DNA from: Rhodocollybia butyracea
Taxonomy: Eukaryota; Basidiomycota; Agaricomycetes; Agaricales; Omphalotaceae
Assembly: GCA_015501585.1 (NCBI GenBank)
Contig: JADNRY010000003.1
Coordinates: 62,001 to 126,000, forward strand
Reading direction: 5' to 3'
Length of the DNA: 64,000 nucleotides
The notes below the pieces were generated by a model. It worked only from the letters and a program-made list of their open reading frames with translations. It searched no databases and was not told where the DNA came from. Below, in pieces: positions 1,327 through 15,487 of this stretch. The first letter of the stretch is position 1, and the number at the start of each line of letters is the position of its first letter. The position numbers were made by a program, and so were the translations under genes.

Positions 1327-2425
1327 TTAACCTTCTAGAATCCCCATGTCTCTCCATTTTTCCCATAATGCGCCTATGCCAACGGGAGCAGACGACGAAC
1401 CCCTGATGTCCTTCATTTCCAGTAGCTCATACTCACGCCCAAACGCAAGAAAATGAGCAAAGAGGCTGTTGAAATGGGGTTCGGAACGGAGGTGTAAGAT
1501 TTGGTGATAATGGGCATGGTACAAATGAGCAAATACTCTGAGAAGCTGTCGATACACGTGTTTGACAGTGGCAGGGAACGAAGGGGCAAAATCCTGCCCT
1601 GAAAAGTGAAAAGGTTGCCATGCGATGAGCTAACATCTTGAGACCGACATGATTTACACACCTGATTTGGTGGGGAAAACGCTCTCGTCGTCCAGAAGAG
1701 TCTGGATCCAGCTCATCACATAATCTACATAGGTAGCAGCGCTGAAATTCCGTTCAGATATCATTCAAGGACCGTAACAATTGACGATTATCATTCACCT
1801 GAGGTTGACGCTTTTCCGATCTTGGTTGATCCAAGTATAATTCAATCTAGAAGGAAGGAGGGAAGGAGACTGAGAGACTATGAAGCCAACGAGGCAGTAG
1901 ACTCACGATGACCCAGCCGACATGGTCGGACATGATTGTTGAGTACAGCATTCCGCCAGGACCCCGTAAAATTCATTAAGATTGGTGTAGAAATCGTAGA
2001 CTAATAATGGCCAGTTAATGTACCGTTTCAATATCTGTAGCGTACAACTCACTATTGACAGCAACCCATTCCATTATATCGACATACCTAAGTTCACAAG
2101 AGTTTAGAGAAAGCATAATCGTTGTTTACATGTAGCTTTTTACTTTGGCAGCATGACAATCGTCTTGAAGTTTCCCTTTACCAAGGCAGCTTCCACGAAT
2201 GGACTGCAGAGATAGAGGGGTTTAGTTTGAGGCGAAGCAACAGGCGATGAGGGGACAGAATTGTTGTTATAATTTGATTCTGTCGGGGAGAAAGTTGCTG
2301 AGGTGGGTGTAGGTGAACGTTTTGTTGACCTGGGAGCTCTTGACATTGAGCGACTGGAGTAGGCCATTAGCAATGAAGAATGAAGTTGATGCATGTACGA
2401 ACCCAATAGAATTGAAGAAGGACAT
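1327..2425 (-). CDS. mob2: MOB kinase activator Mob2, tandem copy B
   Basis: This paralogue of the neighbouring gene starts MSFFNSIG, close to the MSFLN start of yeast Mob2, and splices into STKRSPTPT. It continues with LYLCSPFVEAALVKGNFKTI, MEWVAVN, FYTNLNEFYGVLAECC, SAGSSLNYTW, LLDDESVFPTKSG and LRVFAHLYHAHYHQILHL, and ends at a TAA at 1327-1329. The Mob fold is complete. It differs from copy A at family-typical positions: AGSS replaces AGPN and TW replaces LW. It also has an extra Ser/Asn-rich N-terminal stretch and one more intron. Both copies look functional, so they may have divided roles. Its promoter lies just left of the mobile element. Confidence 0.86.
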
Positions 2426-2552
2426 TTTGGAATGAGTTCAACGAAGACCAGCAAGTCAATGTTGTAAAAGAGGCCAGCTGCCTGGACGTTGAAACTGAGA
2501 AAATGTTCGGATCACCCGGACAAACAGTGGCGCAAGAAGCGCTTATCTCGAC

Positions 2553-2617
2553 CAATCCTGACACGCTCACCAAAACACAAGTCATGCAAGCAATCCTGAC
2601 GCGCTCACCAAAACACA
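2553..2617. repeat. Direct repeat, 27 bases, period 38
   Basis: The 27-base stretch beginning CAATCCTGAC occurs at 2553-2579 and again at 2591-2617 with one mismatch. It ends about 14 bases before the inferred left terminal repeat of the mobile element. Confidence 0.8.
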
Positions 2618-2630
2618 CCAGGAATATGAA

Positions 2631-2656
2631 GGTCCTCACCGGACAATATTATTGGG
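2631..2656 (+). repeat. Left terminal inverted repeat
   Basis: It pairs with the reverse complement of 14271-14297 with one gap and a few mismatches. The shared core is GGTC.TC.CCGG.CAA followed by an AT-rich stretch and TTGGG. Confidence 0.6.
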
Positions 2657-2701
2657 CCTTTCGGCGCTGATTTTTAACTCGGGTTCATTTTCGGGATCAC
2701 A

Positions 2702-2729
2702 TTCGGCGATTCCGGCCTGATTTCGGTCT
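2702..2729 (+). repeat. Left subterminal inverted repeat
   Basis: This 28-base block matches the reverse complement of 14110-14137 at 26 of 28 positions. It starts TTCGGCGATTCCGGC and is followed by GAACTCGGAG and ATTCAGATTCAGATTCG (2741-2757), which also recur inverted near the right end (14146-14162). Confidence 0.8.
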
Positions 2730-2904
2730 TGAACTCGGAGATTCAGATTCAGATTCGTTTTTATTTTCAGTTTTAATTTTCAGTTTTGTTTTCGGTCTCA
2801 GTCCAGTTTCTCACTTTGGTATTTACAATCAAGTTTGGGAGATTGATTGAGCGCTTAACAGGCGCTAAATAAATCTACTTCTTAATCACATCGTATCACG
2901 ATCA

Positions 2905-4781
2905 ATGGAGGCGGCGCAAACAATCTACGATAAGTTCGAAAATATCAAGCAAGAAGTCAATCGGACTTTGTTAACCCAGCGCGGTAACCCAGCAGCTATT
3001 CGACAGCAAAAGCGGGCATGCCTTGCTCTTTATAGACAAGTTAATGAGGTATATTACATTTTCCGAACAACATTGATATATATATTGAGTCTGTACAATA
3101 GTACCAAGTGCAGCTAGGTGGAAATTACAACGAATATATGGATTCTCTGAATCGCATGATCTCTACTCTTCAACAAGTTGGATCTGCTGCTTTAGATCTA
3201 CCAGATGCTCCTCCCCCTGACTTGGGACAAACCACTCCTCATACTGATGCAGCTGGTACAAGACAACCTGGGCGCCCTAGAATACATGTGGACCCAGACA
3301 CTCTTCAGACAATGACATCTGGCTCCAGAGTGACTCATGAAACTGTTGGAAGAATTTTCCAGTGCAGCAGCCGTACAATACGCCGCCGCTTGATCGAATA
3401 TGGCCTCTCTTCATCTGGTCCCCCTGTATATGAGGTACAACAGGAGCCAGATGGCACTTTAACTCAGGTATACTATCCAGGATCTTCTAGTGATCTGTCT
3501 CTCCTTTCCGATGATGAGTTGGATACTCTATTAATCGATCTCAAGCATCGGTTTCCTTCTTTTGGAAGAAGGATGATAGATGGATACCTTATGCAGATGG
3601 GACAGCGTGTTCCTCGAAGTCGCATTGAATCCTCCTACACACGTCTATTTGGCCCATCAAACCGTACATTTGCTCAGCGACGCATTCCTCGCGGTGTTTA
3701 TAACGTACCTGGTCCAAATTGGTTATGGCATCACGACGGTCAACATGGCAGGTTTCTGTAATAATTTTTCATGCTCACAGCTGAGGTATACTTGTAGGTC
3801 TCATTCGCTGGCGGATTATCTTCCATGGCTTTATTGATGGATGCTCTCGATTTGTTGTTGGTGTCCGTGCCAATAACAACAACTTATCATGGACAGTTTT
3901 GGAATTGTTTGAAGATGCTGCATCAGTTCATGGTTATCCCTGTAGAGTACGAGGTGATCATGGAACTGAAAATGTTCTGGTCGCCAGTCGAATGAATGAA
4001 GTTCGAGGACGTGGATCCTATATTTCAGGACGGTGCGTTTTTTTGACCTCTATTCCATGATAGCCTATTCTACAACTCTTTATGTACAGGTCTGTTCACA
4101 ATATCCGCATTGAACGTCTCTGGGTGGACTTGACTTCAGGTTTTGGGAAAAAGTGGAAACTATTCTTTCGCTTGCTTGAAGTCCACCACGGACTTAATGT
4201 TGAAAATGAAATCCACATTTGGCTTCTTCACTTTCTCTTTCTTCCTCGCATCAATGCCGATGTGGACATATGGGTGTCTACATGGAACCATCATGTTATT
4301 TCCTCCAGCACTCACTCTTACCAGTCCCCCATTGATATGTATCGCCAGGGAATGATGGAACAAGGATTTCGAGGGGTTTTTGCATCTGTCGCTTCAGCTA
4401 CTGAGGAAGAAAATGATAACGAAGAACATCATGCAGAATATGGTAATTAATCATCTTTTCTTCATTCATTTATTCTCATTTTTTGCAGGGATCGACTGGG
4501 ATGAATTGGATCGTGCAAATATACGCAATCATCATCATGAGCATAACCAGGCTGATATAGGACGCGAGTCGACAAATGTTTTTGATATAGGAACACCTGA
4601 GGATTTGTCGCATGTTGAGGTACCTCTTACTTCATGCCCTTTGACTGCCGAAGGTGTGCAAATGCTCACCAGCCATCTTGAACAACTTGCTTTTTATTCA
4701 CTTCATGATGAAATTTCTTTGGTCAACCTATGGAACGCTGCCTCTAATTACTTACGGTCACAATCGACTTTAGATAGTTGA
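2905..4781 (+). CDS. Integrase-like (rve-type) DDE transposase
   Basis: Five exons (2905-3048, 3114-3747, 3798-4032, 4090-4442, 4489-4781) give about 552 residues. A GRPR stretch and a helix-turn-helix-like segment (THETVGRIFQCSSRTIRRRL) precede the catalytic core. The core has the acidic triad in HHDGQHG (about residue 256), RVRGDHGTEN (57 residues later) and RIERLW (D-x32-E). This spacing and the IERLW context are of the retroviral-integrase/IS3 type, not the KDZ type. The C-terminal part has LHFLFLPRIN and WNHHVIS, which I recall from a widespread fungal and animal integrase-core family. Intron 2 seems to use a GC donor at 3748. The frame is open throughout, so the gene may be active. It is the presumed mobility enzyme of the element. 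Confidence 0.82.
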
Positions 4782-4908
4782 CATATTAGATAGCCTTACA
4801 GGGTGTATAAATTCTAGCTTCAACTTGGCCTTCATCATCGAACATAAACATAAACTGGTATGTTATTGGTAGCATCATCACTAATTCAGCAAGTACATAC
4901 AAGTAAAG

Positions 4909-5240
4909 CAGGCATCAGTAAAGCAGGCATTGGTAAAGCATAAAGCAGGCGTCAGTAAACCAGGCATTGGTAAAGCAGGCATCAATAAAAAAGGCATTAG
5001 TAAAGCCGGTTGGCGTAGCAGGAGTCAGTAAACGTGAGTCAGTAAAGCAGGAGTCGGTAAAGCAGGAGTTGGTAAAGCAGGAGTCGGTAAAGCAGGAGTC
5101 GGTAAAGCAGGAGTCGGTAAAGCAGGAGTCAATAAAGCAGGCGTAGCAGGAGTCAGTACAGTAAGCATTGATAAAGTAGACGTCGGTATGGTAGGCATCA
5201 ATATAATAGGCATCGATACAGTGGGCATTGAGGTAGGCAT
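4909..5240. repeat. Minisatellite with a 15-base unit
   Basis: Variants of AGTAAAGCAGGCATC / GGTAAAGCAGGAGTC are repeated about 20 times. The cleanest block is at 5040-5135. Five units would keep any frame open, which explains the Ala-Leu-Pro-Thr antisense reading, but I do not believe it is coding. It lies between the convergent 3' ends of the transposase and HECT-like genes. Confidence 0.9.
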
Positions 5241-5338
5241 CAATGGAGTAGATGATACAGTTATTCTATAATAGATGGCGCATGAAAAAATCAGTTGTAC
5301 ACTAAAAAGCTTCAGAGACGTACAAGTTTGAGTTATAA

Positions 5339-8300
5339 TCACAATGAATTAAAAGTTGCAGTCTGTGTCAAAACATTGGACATCCACGTATCAAACGGAG
5401 TTTCAATCGACAAATCTGGACTTGTCCCTTGCAGAAGCTGCGTAAGGTGAGGGTTGTGGTGGCGAACATCCACCTTGGTAAAGCAGGAATGGAAGTGAAT
5501 TTCCAAATCCCCCGTCGTCACAAAGGCCACCTACTATATATTAAAAACAAATCAACTGGGAATGAACCGGCTCACCTTGTAGAGAGTCCGCATCTTAGGC
5601 GATGGTAAGTATTTCGATCCGGATATGGCGACTGCAAAGTGTTCGCGATTCGTGTTACTTTTATCAAGAAAACGCAACAAAGCTCTCATAAACGCGTTTT
5701 CGACCGATGCATAGCCAACCCCAGCAGAGTCGACACTATCAAAAGTACCAGCCATCTGTTCGAATGAGGTGATGAGCCGCCTAGGCCAAACCTCCTGGAT
5801 ATATGATGTCGTATCAATGTCGTTGAGCAGGAAGAGATCAGCAAGAGCCAAGGGGGTACCAGGACCGGAATTATCCGATGAGTATAATGTCATATTAAAG
5901 CCTTCACGGAGAGCAATTAGACCTGGATGATCTTCAAGAAGAGCCTCTTGAGGACCGAAGATAGCACGCTGAATGAGATTGTTGCCAAATCCCATTGTAT
6001 CAGTCAGACCAGATATATCTTCGGGCTTTGAACACTGATTAGAAACAAGTTACGATATGAAATATATAACTCACCAGCATGCTCCCATCATAACCAAATA
6101 CCACCAGGTTAAAAGGATCCTGGCCAATTGTAATATTCAAATTACCATTTTCCGCACGTGAAGGAGGCCAAGTTGCCAGGCGTAAAGATAACACTGGCGC
6201 TACATTGCACCGGAAATCCACCGCAGTAGCATCAGTTCGAGAACCCGATAACAGTAGATGCAATAGGAACGGGGAAAATCGTAGGAACTCCATGTCCCAC
6301 AGTAATGAGATCTGGAGAAAGAGCCCCACTGTCCGAAGGAAATTCTGACGACCATCGTTCATTCTCCCATACTGCTGAGAAGGTATCCGAAGGGTATAAA
6401 ACCCGTCATCCTCTAAGCATGTAAGATCGCCACACGGAATAATAATTTTATCCTCAATTTCTTGGAATAGAGCGCGCCATACTCCTCGACCGGTCGGGCG
6501 ATTATCAAAGTCGGCACTGCTGGACATTCCACTATAGAAAAAACCATCAGTAAATACGTGGTGATCATATGAGTGATACATACATCCTAATCTGCCGATG
6601 AGCTGATGGTACAACTAGATGTTCGGCGTCAAAGTTGGATATAAAAACATCATCGGGAAGAGTAGGAGTAGGAGCACCGTTCGCCATTGCACCAATCAAA
6701 CTCCAGAAAGCTGCTGCCAAAGCTTTGATATCTGAACCTTCCAAGCGTAGATCACCGGCTCCGTCTAAAGGAATAAAAGACTGAAGCGCAATGTGTACAG
6801 CATCGTGAACTGGAGTCTCCACGAATGAGCGGGCAGCTCGTACGGTCCATTGTTCATAATCTTGATATGAACGGCATGGAGGAGAAGGAGCCCGGGACTG
6901 AGACCGATTATCCAGCAGCGGAAATGAAGTGGAAGTAGAAGAACGTTGAGTTGTAGCACGAGTTGTAAGGCGTAAAGGTAGTATTTCTTCTACGGGGGGG
7001 AGCGGTGAGCCAGAGCTTGATCTGGATCGATAACGGCGCAACCGAGACTGCAGTTGGGATCGAGAGCGCGATCGAGAGCGAACAGGAATATAGTCCGAAT
7101 CCGAGTCCTCATCTAAATTGAGAGAAGGCGGCTCGTGGCCTAGGCTGGGCTGGGCCGGTAGCTCTGGAGAGAGATCAAGAGGAAATCGATGAGGTCTTGC
7201 GTCAGACTCCACCTAATAAACTGTAAATTGATTTTGTTCTATATTGATGATCGCAAACTTACAACTGGGCATAAGATGTTGCAAGATACCGAAAGGACTT
7301 CAGTTTCCTCATTGTCGAAATCGTTTTGCTCTGCTGAGCGCCACAGATGCGCGCCTAAGCAACAGTGCATGCTGATAGACCCGTTCAATGGTCCTCCGAT
7401 GATATGCATAACCGGGGCTAAGGAAATGATTAGTGAGACACCTTGAGCAATAAAAAAAGCCTACCAATGAACACGAGATGGGGCGTTGGCGCATCGGGAT
7501 CTTCAACTAGAGCTGAGCTTGAATATTTGGACGCCCAGTCCTCGAGTTTCCCGAATGTGACTTCTTGGGGACTTAAAAAGTGATAGAGAACTGGTGGCAG
7601 CTGCGAGTTACTCCGTGAGACTTGTTTACATTCGAGGAATGTCCAGAGACCAGTAATAGCACCGTTGTGAGGCTTTCCCCGCATATCGAGCAATGACAAA
7701 CCAGAAGATTCCAGATGTTGCTGGAGACGCATATTCAGTGTCGGAGCAACACGATCAGACTTTTTCTTGGTTCCCTGTAGCGAAAAGCAAAGCCCAAGTG
7801 CACTGGCCTGATGTACCATGGCCTTTTGCACATGAGATGGAGGTGCGCGTAGTGGAAATGGGACTTGTCGATCTGGAATTATCATTGTAGCTGGCTAGAG
7901 AAAAAAGATGGTGAGAAAGTGTCGATAAAGTAAAGCGCAATTAAATTCTCTTACAGGTTCGGTATGAAGTATAAAAATAAAATTATAGGACTTGTATCCC
8001 ACTGCTTTTGAGCTACGACCTGTACTACGAGGCTTTGATGAATATGCCACTGGAGCAAAAAAGCTAACTGAAGAGCTTGGGCCCAATGAGGATGCACGTT
8101 GCGATCCAGAAGATGATGCTGCAAGCTGAGTGGTAATCTGAATATTGCCTCGAGTAGAAGCGTACGAGCTAGACGAAGGATTTGTCAAAGAACCTAGTGG
8201 CGATGGTGGAACACCAGGAGTGGGCCGACGGATTTCGCGTGCCTGCTGATGGTCTTGGCGTTCGCGTCCTGCTATACGTCGTCTCTGAGAGGGTGAATTG

Positions 8301-8526
8301 ATGGGTAGTGGCATGTTGAGCTCATCGGGTGGGACCCAAGGCATAACGGTTTGTGAGGAGTGGTGAATAGGTGCAGGTACCATCGGACGAGTTGTGGTAT
8401 GAGTCAGATAGACAAGACTACAATTAACACACAAAGATACAGTTGGGTTCGGATTAGTATCGAGCTAGATAGTTTTTTTTTCAGCGGCGAGTCGAACTTG
8501 AAACAAGCCAATACTTACTGTAACAT
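5339..8526 (-). CDS. HECT-like E3 ubiquitin ligase carried by the element
   Basis: Spliced from about eight exons. A Ser/Pro-rich N-terminus and a middle section (FIAPVMHIIGGPLNG) lead to an Arg/Ser-rich linker. A HECT-type lobe follows, with GVWRALFQEIEDKI and then NFLRTVGLFLQISLLWDMEF and FSPFLLHLLLSG. The C-lobe has FLDKSNTNREHFAVAISGS and FHSCFTKVDV, which aligns with the catalytic HTCFN-hydrophobic motif of HECT ligases. The stop is TGA at 5339-5341. The protein would take ubiquitin on the Cys and pass it to a target; no substrate can be read from sequence. The start is uncertain: a strong intron (GTAAGT, TACTAATC branch) puts the first ATG at 8526, or translation begins near 8381-8434. 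It sits between transposase and dioxygenase, in opposite orientation. Confidence 0.68.
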
Positions 8527-10839
8527 AATAGGTCGTCGCTGGACTCGGGCAATACCTCATCGGTAAGGTTCTAGGTGGAGGCGATGAATGGGCAGCGAAG
8601 GAATGAGTGCAAAAGCAAGTGTTATCCTGCCAGTAAAGTTAGCATTAGTAGGTGCGATGAAGCAAAAAAACGTACTGAGAGTTCGAAATACTCAGTACAC
8701 ATTGTACACTGAGTACACTTTGTAGAAGGGACCATTGATCTAAAACACGATAACAAGAAGAACGAAAAAAAGAGTACAAGAGCGTGATGATTATCAAGTT
8801 CAAATTTGAGAACACAAACAGACCAGCCGAAAAAAATTATGTGCGGAGAACAAAGGCAATAATTAGCGTTAAAGAGCAACTAGCAAGCTTTCGAGGTGAC
8901 GAACAAGAGCAAAGAGAGTAAAGGAAGCAACGTAAAAAACGTCAAAAATGGGTTTGACAGCTCTGTGGCACACGCCACTTTACGGACATGTGATTTAGTG
9001 CGCAGAGTCGAAGCGCAATGTACAGAACCTAATAAGCTATGGGGCAGTAAATATAAGTGAAGATAATAGCAGATTTCACAAATAACATACCAATAACGCG
9101 TCAACGCGTCGAGTTACATAGTCACATGTCCGGGCATGCAGCGTGTAATAATGTGCTGATGGATGAGGGAATGAATGTATGTATGTTGATTTGCGGTATA
9201 TCAACTTGCCGCTGGTAGATGGGTGAATAACCACTGTTTATTGATACGTGGTGGGTGCCTGTGTATGTCCTGAAATTAATAGGTAAGTGGAAGCAATCGA
9301 GGAAGCAAACAGACTTGGATTTACCTTGGGATTTACCAGCTGAGGAACGTCTAACACTGCCATACAAGATTGACCAATCAACCAGACGCAGATAGTACAG
9401 TTCAGTCTCGAAAGACTTTGCCGCGGCCCCATTGCTGGGGTTTCACTTTGTCGTGGTCGAAAGTAAGAAAAGATACACGGAATTTGTTCCGTTATGCAGG
9501 TCACGTGACGACTAATACGGGCGCTCCGCTACTTCCGCTGCTCTTACCTTCAAGCACAACCAACATTCCCTCTACCGTGTAGCTTATCATTTCTGAAAAG
9601 CGCTAGGCCTGGGCATACAACAGAGGAAGTAATTGAGCTGAACTAGCCATTTCTGGGATGTAAAATGTGAGTTATGTCTTCTCTTCGTTCTTTTTGTATG
9701 TTTGATTAACAACTCGTATTCTAGCCTCCGATATTCTAATTCGTCCTCTGCTTCCAATTGTTGATTCAATGGCCCCCCCTACCTTCACCCCGGGACACAC
9801 AAATTTACGGTGCTACTGCCTCCATCGCAACCACCACCTCGAGTACTCCCATTCCCCGTAAATCTCGATTCTTGCCTTGCGAATTTGCGCAGAAATCCCA
9901 GACCAAGGTCCTTACTCTCAAACTGCGGCATTCTCTCGGTCGACGCCGCTATTCTGATTTCGAAGCTTTCCATATGGTGTTTTGTCGCCGTGCGCGCAGA
10001 AGTGCCGAACTTATCCGGATTTGACTATATCACTTATTTGACTCGTGTTTGCACGCGATGGAGTGGGCGTGTGCGTCGTGTGTACCTGCGAGCTCATGCA
10101 GGTCGTGTCTGCGGGAATGTGAGCCCTCGCGATCTGTTCTATCAAGATAGAGATAGATCATGTCCCTCGGCCTCTGCTTTCAGCATTTTATCTTACAATG
10201 GAGAGTACCGTAATTACTATTACCAAAGATTTATTTACGGTCAGCTTCCATGTTCTCCCAACTAACTACGCATTGATGATATCGTAAACAATCACTATCT
10301 TACCGCCGCTACTCTCTTTTGAGGGAACATTCCTTCCCGCTTAGCCGAGGTGAGCCTCTTGCGGTGCATGTGAAAAGCTTATACAAAGATTGAGCTCTAG
10401 GTTGCGGTCCATGACCACCATAGACGGAACTCTCAGCACTTTATTCCAACAGCTCCACATGTCTGTTCCTTGTAGGTCAGATGCACTGATGTCTTATGTG
10501 AGTTCTGTCGACTTTTTCATATGCATGTTCCGTTGATTCAACAGCTTTCCGACGGCTTTCCGACCCACCCCCGTTCACAACGGGAATCCTCAGTACCTAT
10601 TCCAACGGTTCTCTTTTCTAAAGTGTTCACATTCAGCACCTAGTAATGGTGCTGTTCTGTGCATTTAAAGGGGCTCTGTTGATATATTTGGATGAGTAAA
10701 TTAGCATGAGTTTTCTTGCGCCAGTAGAAGTGCCGCTTATCACTACAGTGATGTTAACAAGTTTCCAGTCTGGTAGATTTTAATAGATGTTCTAAAAAAA
10801 AATTTCATAACTACACATTGTCTCCAACGCCCATCATCG
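8527..10839. other. 2.3 kb interior of the element without a recognised gene
   Basis: Many short open frames occur on both strands, but none carries a domain I recognise or splices into a convincing protein. The stretch should contain the divergent promoters of the HECT-like and dioxygenase genes. A Pro-rich open frame begins at the ATG near 9769, but it stops after about 30 codons unless a very short intron is invoked. Confidence 0.45.
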
Positions 10840-13800
10840 ATGGATGTCTTGACTCTACTTTCAGGCCGTCTGGCCATGCTAGCCAGACATTGGAAGGAAA
10901 AGCTTGTTACAGCTCAGGGAGATGCTTTCAAGGTGTATGAATGCACTGTTGATATTGAGAAGAGTATTGAGCAGGAGAATCTGGTGAGTGGACTAAGTTC
11001 ATTTGAGCTGCAGGTACATGACCTTACAGGAGTAAAGTGGACAGATATTGCAGCCTGGTTGGGACAATGTCTGAAGGCTCCACCTAGTGTTTACAAGCAT
11101 CCAGACAGAGCGGTCATGCTAGAAACTTTCTTGGATATCATCTCATCCCAATCTCAAGAGAATATTCAAGATTACATTGACTGTTATGAGTTATTATTGG
11201 TATGTTATGTTTAAAGATGCATACCCTGCCTTATTCTTCAAAGAATCAACGGCAAAAAAATATCATGTTCACAAAAAATGAAACCGATTTTGACTCAGAC
11301 TTGACTGAGTATGATTATGGTGAGAGTGAGGGGGAGGAGATGAACCATATTGACTTGAGGGGAGAAGAGGAGTGTCCTAGTGAGGAGGAATCAAAGAGAC
11401 GTGCAGGACAAAAGACAGATGAGATGGAGAGACAGAAGGGTAGAGTCAACAAAGATGGAGAATTGTTTCAAAGATACTGTACACTGGCCAGTAATTGGAA
11501 AGAAAAACTTGACATCTTGGAGGTGGGTTTTTGTTCACTCTATTTGATAAATCTCAATATTATTTAGTCAGGCGTGTTATCAAAATTCATCAAAGGCTAT
11601 ACCTTTGATGAATTTAAAAAGCCTATTGTTGAGGCTATATGCTCAATGAAAAGTGAGCTAGCTATATCCGAGAGTCACTCTGCAGAATTTCATGAGGCGG
11701 TCAAGGTTAGATTTGAACATCTGAAATTGATTGCAATTTGATATTGGTGTAGGAGACTGGCCTGATGCGTTTGATTGAGACAATATGTGATCCCACCTTT
11801 CTCATACAGCATCGAGATACCCACAACTCTAAAGTGGAGCAGATATACAGAATTGCAGATCAGCTGGGGAGACTTGCTCAGCAGTGGATCCCTCCTGAGA
11901 TTGTGGCAAGCTGGGCCAATAATGAAGAAGGATTTCACTCCAATAAAGTATCATTGTTTTTATTGCTTAGTATAAAGTCTATTTCTGACATTTCTATTAG
12001 ACTACTGGTCCTGAAATTACAAAAAAAGGGCCGGCTTTTCTGAAGCTTTTTGATAAATACCCAGCTTTGATCCCTGGAGAGGAACATCATGACTATATAT
12101 TTTTTCTGACTAGTTTTGAATCTTTCTGCAGCAACTATAAGAGATGGCTTGGGCCTTGGATGGATCATTTAGGCTATAATGTAAGTGCACTCTTATATGT
12201 CATTTAATGTTGTTGACTTTGATGTAGCTTTCATGGTTGAACACTGTGGGTAATCTGAAAAAGCTATATGACAGTGTTTTAAGAACTCTGTCCACTTGGT
12301 GCATACATGATAAAAACGGTGTACGGCCCATTGATACCAAAAATTTCAAGGTTGAACGCTGGCGTACCATCCTCAAAATGACACACCAAATTCGTCAGTT
12401 ATCACAAAAAGCAGACAAATTTTCTTCGAAGCTGGCTCATTGTTCCAGGTGTGCACATTTGTCTGCTGATAAACGATGTGTACAGTATCGCTATTTTCCA
12501 CGTATTTGGCATGATCTTCTAAAAAAAAGATCGGGTTCAAAAAATTATGATGTTGCATAAAGAACTTCGAGGTGCTGGGATCTGTATGGTGCCTGTATCT
12601 GAGCAAATGATACCAAAACTTGATAAAGATGTATGTTTTTTTCTGGCCAATATTTGCTAGACTTATCAGATTGGATAGGGAAATGGGCCTCAAAAGCCTG
12701 TGTATCATCCAGGCTCAGTGGGAGAGTCCAAGTGCAAGCTAGTGCCACTAGAACCTGACCCGGGAATCCGAAAAGGCTGTGGACATCAGCTGATTCTGAT
12801 TGTTGATGAACCAGAGGACAAGAATGATTCTACTAGGTTTGTGGTTGACTGGAAAAATCTCAAGGTAAATTGAAGTAATCTACTGAGAGACTGGGCTAAC
12901 TGAAATGTCAGAACATTGTGGATTTTGTTTGGTGGGACCCATTTGATGATGACATTCTGGCAATTATGCAAGAGAATGTGGTTGAAAGTACTGGAGTTAA
13001 ACCAATCAAAAGAGGTGGCCAATTCCGCCACTATAGCGGGCATGATTTGTCTGGTATTGGAGCCGCTTAGCCAGCGGTGGGAGAAAAGGTGATACACTGA
13101 CAGCATATGCTGGTCTAGAGGGAGGAACTGACAAGGGTATCAATATTCTCTTCCGGCAAGCACAGGTATGAATATTTTTAACAGATAGTACTCTGTATTT
13201 ACTATCATTTCCAGACATCTGCAATCATGCAAGCTGTTGCAAAGCATGCTCATCCAGAACTGGTGAAGCTTCTTGAGAAGGTGTCTGCTAATTGTGATCG
13301 TCTGGGCATGAGCGGGGCAAACTTGTACAACGCAACAAGCTATATCGCCCCAATTCACAGGGACCGTGATGCCAGTCGTGGTCTTTGTGCACAGTTTCTG
13401 TTAAAGGCCAATTCAAAATATTATGAGTTTGGATTCTGCAATATTGAGTTTCAATACTATATACGGACATCCACAAATTGTTTATGGCAAGTATCCAGCT
13501 TTGATGGACCTTTTCTGTACAACTCATCATAAATTTAGGTCGTTCAACAGTTCTGATCTGCATGGCACTATGCTTCCATCTGAAAAGACTGTTCAAAGAC
13601 TCAACAGTCATGCTTACCGAAGTAGCACTCACAGTGGAAACCAAAATCAGCAGAGCAGGGGCAGTGGCGGTAATAGGGGGGGCAGGGGCAGAGGGCAACA
13701 CCCAGTGAAATGTAGTTCTGGGACTGGGCCTGGGATCAGAAGAAGTGCCCGAATAGCTGAACAAGATAATGCCCCGGGACCAACTGTAAGCAATGGGGCC

Positions 13801-13899
13801 CATGTCACTACACCGAATCGAAATTACAAGCGCGCTCAACAAAATGCCCAGGTCAGAAACCAGTACCAGTTACGAAGCACTTATTGGCGCGGACAATAA
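10840..13899 (+). pseudogene. TET/JBP-like 2OG-Fe(II) dioxygenase with two frameshifts
   Basis: About ten exons. An N-terminal region of unknown function includes an acidic stretch (DSDLTEYDYGESEGEE). It leads to a C-terminal double-stranded beta-helix region with YIAPIHRDRD (HxD iron ligands) and CLWSFNSSDLHGTMLP (distal His). An Arg 12 residues after that His could bind 2-oxoglutarate. A basic Gly/Arg-rich tail ends at a TAA at 13897-13899. This pattern fits the TET/JBP-type oxygenases known from basidiomycete transposons, which oxidise methylated bases. A GC..AG intron (13487-13538) joins CLW to SFNSS. Two single-base frame breaks are visible: an A8 run at 12521-12528 and a break near 13055-13065 just before GRKGDTLTAYAGL. 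Either the copy is decaying or the assembly has homopolymer errors. Confidence 0.62.
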
Positions 13900-13956
13900 A
13901 TAACACACCGCATTTTAACGCTAATTGATATGCATCTGTAAGTTGCACGCTTCCTG

Positions 13957-13973
13957 GCGCTTAAATAGGCGCT
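13957..13973. repeat. GCGCTTAA..AGGCGCT copy, right side
   Basis: This imperfect palindrome occurs here, 58 bases after the dioxygenase stop, and in nearly the same form and orientation at 2851-2866, 39 bases before the transposase start. The match is 15 of 17 with one gap. Confidence 0.6.
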
Positions 13974-14030
13974 TTCCGGCAGCGCTTCCCCGATTTGGCC
14001 ATGGTAGTGTAAAAATGGTTGAGACCAAAA

Positions 14031-14240
14031 TCACGCCGGGACGGCTGAATTCGAATCTCAAAGCAGTGTTGAATTGAAGTCTGAAAATGAAACCAGAGTT
14101 CCGAATCTGAGACCGAATTCACGCCGGAATCGCCGAAACTGTACCCGAATCTGAATCTGAATTCAACTCTGAAAATGAAACTAGAACTCCGAGTTCGAGT
14201 CCGAGATCACGCCGGAGTGGCCGAAAATGAGTCCGAAATT
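14031..14240. repeat. Right subterminal array, 88-base unit
   Basis: The motif TCACGCCGG begins at 14031, 14119 and 14207, exactly 88 bases apart. A second shared block, CTGAAAATGAAAC, recurs at the same phase in the first two units. The units are degenerate between these motifs. Inverted single copies of the same motifs lie at the left end (2690-2760). Confidence 0.8.
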
Positions 14241-14270
14241 GGAACGAAAGTTGAATTCCTCATGGAAAAC

Positions 14271-14297
14271 CCCAATTATTTTTGCCCGGCGACGACC
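14271..14297 (-). repeat. Right terminal inverted repeat
   Basis: Read on the minus strand it begins GGTCGTCGCCGGGCAA and ends AATTGGG, matching 2631-2656 at about 21 of 27 positions. Confidence 0.6.
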
Positions 14298-15487
14298 GGT
14301 ATACCAGGAAGAGGCTCACAAACTCAGGATGCACCTTATTCTACGCAGTGACCAGTTGATCCTCTACTCATTGCGCATGTGGGTACTCGTCTTGAAACTA
14401 GTGGGCCGACGGTAATGAGTTGCTTATGTAAATTGACCTATTGCAGTTGTTTTCGCCCTCTCTGAGAGGTAACACCTAGCTAGGACAGAAACTTCCTTTT
14501 CCCTTCCCGAAAACTTTATCCGCCCAATTGCAAGTTGCCCTGTAATCAAACTATAATGTTGGGCTTCGAGTCGTTCCCCTCCCGCTCCTATGTCCATCCT
14601 TCTTTGCATGAATTTCAATCTCGATTCACCTAAGTACAATGCCATTTACGTCGCGTCAAGAACTTTCGTCACCATCGCACTCCCACTCGTCTTCTATATG
14701 GCTCTGTGGCTCCTGGCATATTTCGCGCACAGGAAATGCTCATTCACAGCTGAACAATCTCTGGCACATCTTTCCCAGTGCTGGAGATTGTTATGGCCCC
14801 TTCAAAACACCCGAACATATTCTCTTGCCAAGATGGCTATCCCATCACCATTCGCAACAACTTTCGAGCTCTCTCCACAGACCTTCGTCCACATATTCAC
14901 TCAACAGCGGCAACGCGATGCATACTTCTTCCGTGTTGGCGCTACCGGTTGTGTGGGATCTGACGACTCGCATACATGAGAAACTGTTCATGATCCAGCA
15001 AGATCCTAAATAGTAAAAGGCCACAGCGCGGTTACGCCTGGACGGGTAGTTTTTCCCTGTTGCCCTTCCGCTTTTCTGTTGGGGTCTAATACGTGCTGTA
15101 CTTACATACCTCCCTGTAAGCACCAAGCTAGCCTCGGCTCTTGCTATGTCCTAGCCCTGCAATCTATGTACCTTTTTTCGGGAGTCGACTCGCTATACTT
15201 ATGGGACCGCATTCGGTTCTAAAACTGGACCTAATAACGATCGGTCCTTCAGACAAACCTGAAGGGTCTCACAACAATTTGTTTGGTCGAAAATGGCTAA
15301 ATCTAGGCAGTGTTCAACGGTTTCTGTGTTGAGATTTTGTTTCCAACAAGATCGCCCCTATGGCTTTAATCCCTCATAAGTATCCGCTATCGCGTCCCGC
15401 CATACACTCAGTCTTATCGGAAACTGACAGTTCTGGGACATAAATACAACAACTATCGCTTAGTCTTTATCTAGTTCCCCGCTGGAT
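14298..15487. other. Stretch between element and K+ transporter, no clear gene
   Basis: Open frames at 14590-15013 overlap in two plus-strand phases but show no domain I recognise. They could be the remnant of a gene or the long leader of the transporter. The last 100 bases must hold the transporter promoter. Confidence 0.4.

Follow-up and report, generated by a model that had tools for sequence, protein, structure and literature searches.

An IS3EU-like transposon with a TET-like oxidase gene and a fast-evolving companion gene in the mushroom Rhodocollybia butyracea

Fungal transposons that carry TET/JBP genes were reportedly described some years ago, by Iyer et al. in 2014. The present work concerns an element of this kind in the mushroom Rhodocollybia butyracea, located within a stretch of 64,000 nucleotides (here called the window) on contig C605 of the 95.6 Mb host genome. 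In the passages of the literature drawn on here, TET/JBP genes are found in IS3EU transposons of rusts (Pucciniales) and of Tuber indicum (Kojima, December 2025; PMC12730594). The rust elements have 6 bp target-site duplications and an α-kinase gene as a companion, with the oxidase gene between those of the transposase and the kinase. The carriers given in the same source for the Agaricomycotina are Kyakuja, Zisupton, EnSpm, Plavaka and Helitron2; in the portions drawn on, its section on that group contains no TET-bearing IS3EU element and its main text contains neither 'HECT' nor 'ubiquitin', and 'HECT' is likewise absent from the passages of PMC12062965. Transposon-borne TETs have been proposed to counteract methylation, a function described in the former source as not validated experimentally (PMC12730594). 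IS3EU elements, with which GingerRoot is grouped, have TA..TA termini and a duplication of 'usually 6 bp' (PMC10045372).

Alignment of the window to copies on contigs C494 and C852 places the element at 2625–14303 (11,679 bp), with termini TATGAAGG..CCGGTATA. It is bordered by 7 bp target-site duplications (2618–2624 and 14304–14310), and its extent agrees with the copy boundaries and with a matching element-free site on C310. Three multi-exon genes are enclosed by imperfect terminal inverted repeats (2625–2658 on the plus strand and 14269–14303 on the minus strand; 24 of 35 aligned columns match) and by subterminal inverted repeats with arms of 84 nt (2673–2756, plus, pairing with 14083–14166, minus) that are 71% complementary. 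This is the arrangement proposed in the original prediction, which had identified the element correctly and set its ends, 2631 and 14297, 6 bp too far inwards. The comparison of copies that it called for yielded the true ends together with a 7 bp duplication around all four inspected elements with these ends (the window, C494, C852 and C566; hereafter family 1), and the ends are common to the related copies rather than absent from them. The right end has six matches in the genome, of which those on C1043 and C312 lie outside the inspected set of four. One protein of the element corresponds to the public record BDP27DRAFT_1311116 (Rhodocollybia butyracea). The element is a recently mobile DNA transposon in which a TET-like oxidase gene accompanies that of an rve/IS3-like transposase in one mobile unit. 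We regard it as probably a cut-and-paste transposon of the IS3EU/GingerRoot type, equipped with a TET-like oxidase that opposes silencing and with a fast-evolving accessory gene (gene 2), for which a HECT-type ligase is the best guess.

The window and C494 copies differ by six substitutions in 11,675 aligned bases, and those on C494 and C852 by 31 in 6,990. When the flanks of the window insertion are joined, they match C310 (1024–1607) over all 593 bases at 97%. The C310 site, which is probably the other allele, is without the element and shows a ten-column gap and a few changed neighbouring bases exactly at the junction; the gap may have been left by excision or may equally be a small indel of earlier date. 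The C852 copy is without the part corresponding to 5527–10145. Since it retains the 3' part of gene 2 and its join has one shared base with no inverted repeat seen there, we read it as a deletion derivative, and the proposal that its ancestor had no gene 2 was rejected on the same grounds. At the place of window position ~10696, this copy has an insertion of ~412 bp that is bordered on both sides by a short TAAATTA repeat. A minisatellite with a 15 bp unit (4904–5240), which separates genes 1 and 2 at their 3' ends, varies in length among the three copies. The C566 relative (L012 707–5530) is 4.8 kb long and has both ends and the 7 bp duplication; it gave no match to the three element proteins and its interior matches other repeats of the genome.

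The transposase and gene 2 are open in the window copy, in which the oxidase is broken; in C494 the oxidase is open over 875 codons and the other two genes are broken. The C852 copy has lost nearly all of gene 2, its transposase is interrupted by a stop that arose from a C-to-T change at CpG, and its oxidase has a stop late in the frame. All six single-base indels between the window and C494 outside the minisatellite fall in one-letter runs, so draft-assembly errors in such runs may explain part of the frame breaks.

Gene 1 (2905–4781, plus strand; exons 2905–3048, 3102–3747, 3798–4032, 4090–4442 and 4489–4781) encodes a DDE transposase of 556 residues that matches PF24764 (Integrase core domain) with an E value of 6.8e-61 and rve with one of 1.8e-6, under the rve cut-off. 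The DDE residues, located by eye, lie in the motifs HHDGQ, RGDHGTEN and RIERLW, and 32 residues separate the second from the third; the rve/IS3-like core postulated earlier from these motifs is borne out. A KDZ or hAT identity was rejected, the transposase matching PF24764 and no KDZ model; genes 2 and 3 have no Pfam transposase match. Like IS3EU elements, both families found in this genome have an rve/IS3-like DDE transposase and TA..TA termini, TATGAAGG..CCGGTATA in family 1 and TATGGAGG..CCGGTATA in family 2. The duplications, 7 bp in the four inspected family-1 elements and 6 bp for family 2 at C943, do not fit the usual 6 bp cleanly, and for this reason the element is filed as IS3EU-like rather than as a plain IS3EU member. 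Two introns, 3748–3797 in the transposase gene and 13487–13538 in the oxidase gene, are best read with GC–AG borders.

The gene trio recurs in family 2. The element on C943 (11,115 bp, with the 6 bp duplication) contains the three genes in the order and orientations of family 1, and C794 and C844 have family-2 elements that share the right flank of C943; in all, the trio is present in five copies of two families. The original prediction would have failed had the three genes never co-occurred elsewhere, and they do so in this genome, between related ends. No duplication is recognisable at C794 and the left end at C844 is cut short; these two copies may have been duplicated or misassembled. C844 (L013) has, in addition, an inverted duplicate of an inner portion of the family-2 element directly beside its left end (1628–4340) and a second, inverted oxidase match (C844:12727–15777).

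Searches of the genome gave 104 transposase-matching stretches on 45 contigs and, among 88 oxidase matches, 17 additional oxidase-like loci, including five weak ones at 26–29% identity. An rve locus is present within 15 kb of seven of these 17, where a uniform null that ignores the clustering of transposons predicts 0.22; this count used 48 of the 104 rve rows, merged to 47 loci. Neglect of clustering, like the repeat-rich nature of the genome, would leave room for the view that the genes are unrelated insertions which became adjacent by chance in a repeat-rich region. We rejected this view as highly improbable, because two families that have their ends in common but differ in their left flanks contain the trio in the same order, and because the C310 site is without the whole unit. 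On C716 (343717–347580) and C111 (11427–15221) an oxidase-like gene lies upstream of rve in the same orientation; the spacing is identical at both loci (3,208 bp between match starts), so these loci apparently belong to a third family, in which the oxidase gene precedes that of the transposase. The rve loci on C467, C628 and C1371 (9.5 kb of each) gave no match to gene 2 or the oxidase. An α-kinase companion such as that of the rust IS3EU elements was also rejected: 14 PF02816 rows are spread over 11 contigs, none of which carries family 1 or 2, and the only one within 15 kb of rve is on C712, ~11 kb away.

Gene 3 (10840–13899, plus strand; exons 10840–11199, 11244–11522, 11568–11705, 11753–11947, 12001–12180, 12228–12630, 12679–12864, 12912–13165, 13215–13486 and 13539–13899), with a broken frame in the window and 875 residues open in C494, encodes the TET-like 2-oxoglutarate–Fe(II) dioxygenase. 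The model of its relative P0004 (mean predicted local distance difference test score, pLDDT, of 67.6) has the TET-type double-stranded β-helix, and the first 16 VIA entries for this fold are TET2, CMD1, CcTET and NgTET. The HxD...H iron site of TET/JBP dioxygenases is present in the family, with HxD in 21 of 22 aligned homologues (P0028 is without that stretch) and the second histidine in all 22. PE-type TETs have HxE in place of HxD and AG-type TETs have an equivalent of Asp337, 11 residues after the first histidine (PMC12730594). The HxE of the former is not found in the family, given its HxD, and no aspartate lies 11 residues past the first histidine, counted by eye on the sequence alignment alone. 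Thirty of the 31 oxidase homologues are from other mushrooms (23 from Lentinula raphanica, five from L. edodes, one from Mycena and one from Marasmius). The gene 3 product is predicted, as the most likely reading, to oxidise 5-methylcytosine at CpG sites of the element.

Between the two families the oxidase gene is 79–80% identical in one block over its full length, introns included (exons 82%, introns 74%), and upstream of the gene there are three short alignable stretches at 72–90%. The transposase gene aligns in its core only, with a DNA identity of 64–66% (44–69% for the amino acids of the individual exon pieces), and for gene 2 there is no alignment of the coding part at all. Over 864 codons the oxidase has a dS of 0.64 and a dN of 0.12 (dN/dS ~0.19), whereas the proportion of synonymous differences (pS) is saturated both for the transposase (pS 0.78, dN 0.38) and for gene 2 (pS 0.81, dN 0.84). 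Because its dS is 0.64 where the other two genes are saturated, the oxidase gene was most likely exchanged between the families after their split. The substitution rates further indicate that the oxidase gene is under purifying selection and that gene 2 evolves the fastest of the three.

The copies also bear a CpG footprint. With columns that have a gap within four positions dropped, 68 of the 85 C-to-T singletons over both families are at CpG. Family 1 contributes 15 of 22 (P = 1.8e-7; CpG share of its C sites 0.173) and family 2 contributes 53 of 63 (P = 3.6e-33; CpG share 0.156). The 2.6 kb right flank shared by the family-2 copies has two singletons, compared with 85 in the 11.1 kb element. 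CpG methylation targeted to these elements would be the simplest reading of this scar, and the substrate of the oxidase is therefore likely to lie on the element itself. The escape from silencing that had been proposed at the outset gains indirect support from the footprint. An oxidase that is only a hitchhiker, or that acts elsewhere (on N6-methyladenine, thymine or RNA, or through CMD1-like C5-glyceryl chemistry) and plays no part against silencing by 5-methylcytosine, seems unlikely to us in view of its dN/dS, its movement between families as a unit and the CpG changes on the elements. A T precedes 33 of the 68 CpG C-to-T changes (background 0.31–0.32); a TCG hypermutation pattern is known for rust-group fungi (PMC12730594). 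DNA_methylase matches are found on C551, C483, C1260 and C1055; the C1260 match has a BAH match in its vicinity.

Gene 2 (5339–8383, minus strand; exons 8383–7991, 7894–7465, 7417–7263, 7212–6584, 6531–6075, 6034–5576 and 5530–5339) encodes at least 904 residues, and the public model of its C494 copy, P0032, has extra N-terminal exons further upstream. The family-2 counterpart occupies the same place and orientation and is 32% identical over 380 aligned residues. Homologue searches, one of them among 7,996 candidates scored, returned only the annotations P0032 and P0033 of the same genome; in a genome search P0033 matched gene 2 only on C943, C794, C844, C605 and C494. We lean towards a HECT-like product. 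In family 2 the Pfam HECT model, PF00632, matches the HTCF-containing end, which would be the catalytic part (E = 0.061; 13.4 bits against a cut-off of 23.9), and it gives E values of 0.06 for the C-terminal part alone and 0.16 for P0033, all under the cut-off. Close to the C-terminus lies an H[TS]CF cysteine, HSCF in family 1 and HTCF in family 2, which would be the catalytic one. A profile comparison places the N-terminal part of gene 2 in register with two host HECT domains (E = 0.037; one of 60 column shuffles scored higher).

The sub-cut-off PF00632 values speak for an alternative, the same transposon with a gene 2 product that is an unrelated fast-evolving accessory protein and not a ubiquitin ligase, for example one that has a Cys-rich motif at its N-terminus and binds DNA or serves as a co-factor in transposition. 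Family-1 gene 2 has no PF00632 match in the Pfam search, the only Pfam match of its C-terminal part being Sec-ASP3 at an E value of 0.061, equal to that of HECT in family 2. With a profile hidden Markov model built from the two host HECT domains, neither of the two gene 2 proteins stands out from its shuffles, which reach or exceed the score in 43 of 500 and 125 of 500 cases; no HECT chain is among the PDB matches of the gene 2 proteins, and the AlphaFold2 model (pLDDT 34.6) is unusable for recognising a bilobed HECT fold. We consider a non-ligase a real possibility, if not the favoured one, because the HECT match falls on the part with the HTCF motif and the N-terminal part is in register with the host domains. 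Moreover, the HECT proposal already stood on family 1 when family 2 came to be looked at, which makes a library-wide correction over-strict, with the qualification that the two families share the H[TS]CF motif by descent. The HECT-like ligase that had been claimed thus stays a weakly supported assignment: it has the cysteine motif and the N-terminal alignment, but no PF00632 match above the cut-off, no HECT chain among the PDB matches and no separation from shuffles. The altered host protein turnover claimed with it finds no support here.

As the most likely mechanism, the transposase would cut the element at its TA..TA inverted ends and insert it at 7 bp targets. The oxidase would remove or convert 5-methylcytosine at CpG on the element, allowing the element genes to be expressed and opposing silencing, and the gene 2 product would act on a host protein, possibly through ubiquitination by a HECT-type ligase. 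For the catalysis, the relief from silencing and the role of gene 2, this is what we infer. A bolder version, in which the TET-like oxidase erases methylation from the element's own DNA, gene 2 encodes a fast-evolving HECT-type ligase that sends a host silencing factor to degradation, so that host silencing is attacked in two ways, and the oxidase is a module traded between families under CpG methylation pressure, is put forward only tentatively and with some doubt.

Several points weigh against the reading of the element as an IS3EU-type transposon with a silencing-opposing TET-like oxidase. The best Foldseek E value for the P0004 model is 0.089, with none at or below 0.001, and VIA realigned only the 954 chains that Foldseek had already ranked. 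The oxidase and its relatives have no above-chance sequence match in Pfam, NCBIfam or the PDB, so that the TET/JBP-like dioxygenase of the original prediction stands by its fold and not by a sequence profile. Distant TET types have likewise been recognised by structure (PMC12730594), and a profile match is not a strict requirement for TET/JBP membership. The footprint implies that the elements were methylated and hence that protection by the oxidase was incomplete; each of the three gene-bearing family-1 copies has at least one of its genes broken; the family-1 duplication departs from the usual IS3EU length; and the gene order was covered in one species only.

The combination is partly new. 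It had been taken as undescribed, and this holds for the Agaricomycete carrier and the gene 2 companion, which were not met in the portions of the literature drawn on; the general idea of a TET/JBP gene by which an IS3EU transposon escapes methylation is already published (PMC12730594). An Agaricomycete IS3EU-like carrier, a fast-evolving gene 2 and a CpG scar on the carrier were not found in print among the papers listed in searches of open-licence PubMed Central. A single mushroom here brings together the oxidase, selection on its reading frame, its transfer between families, the methylation scar, near-identical copies and an element-free site, so that the anti-silencing hypothesis becomes directly testable, and the retention of an unusually fast-evolving companion gene in the unit points to another host target.

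Among the known systems, the KDZ (Kyakuja) TET-bearing transposons resemble the element as DNA transposons of mushrooms with a TET-fold passenger, CcTET being among the structural matches; they differ in that the transposase here is of the PF24764 type and the oxidase-family profile has no sequence match among PDB chains, not even to CcTET. GingerRoot and IS481EU share an rve-type DDE transposase; no TET-like cargo is mentioned for them in the passages drawn on, and the duplications of IS481EU (~4, 15 or 25 bp) contrast with the 7 or 6 bp found here. The closest relatives are the TET-bearing IS3EU elements of Kojima (PMC12730594), which likewise combine an IS3EU-type transposase with a TET/JBP-type oxidase in one element with terminal inverted repeats of more than 30 bp and TA..TA ends, and whose oxidase genes also move between transposon families. 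As far as those elements are described in the passages cited, the present ones differ from them in their duplications, which measure 7 bp in family 1 and 6 bp in a single copy of family 2, in their Agaricomycete host, in having gene 2, and no α-kinase, between the transposase and the oxidase, and in an oxidase with HxD.

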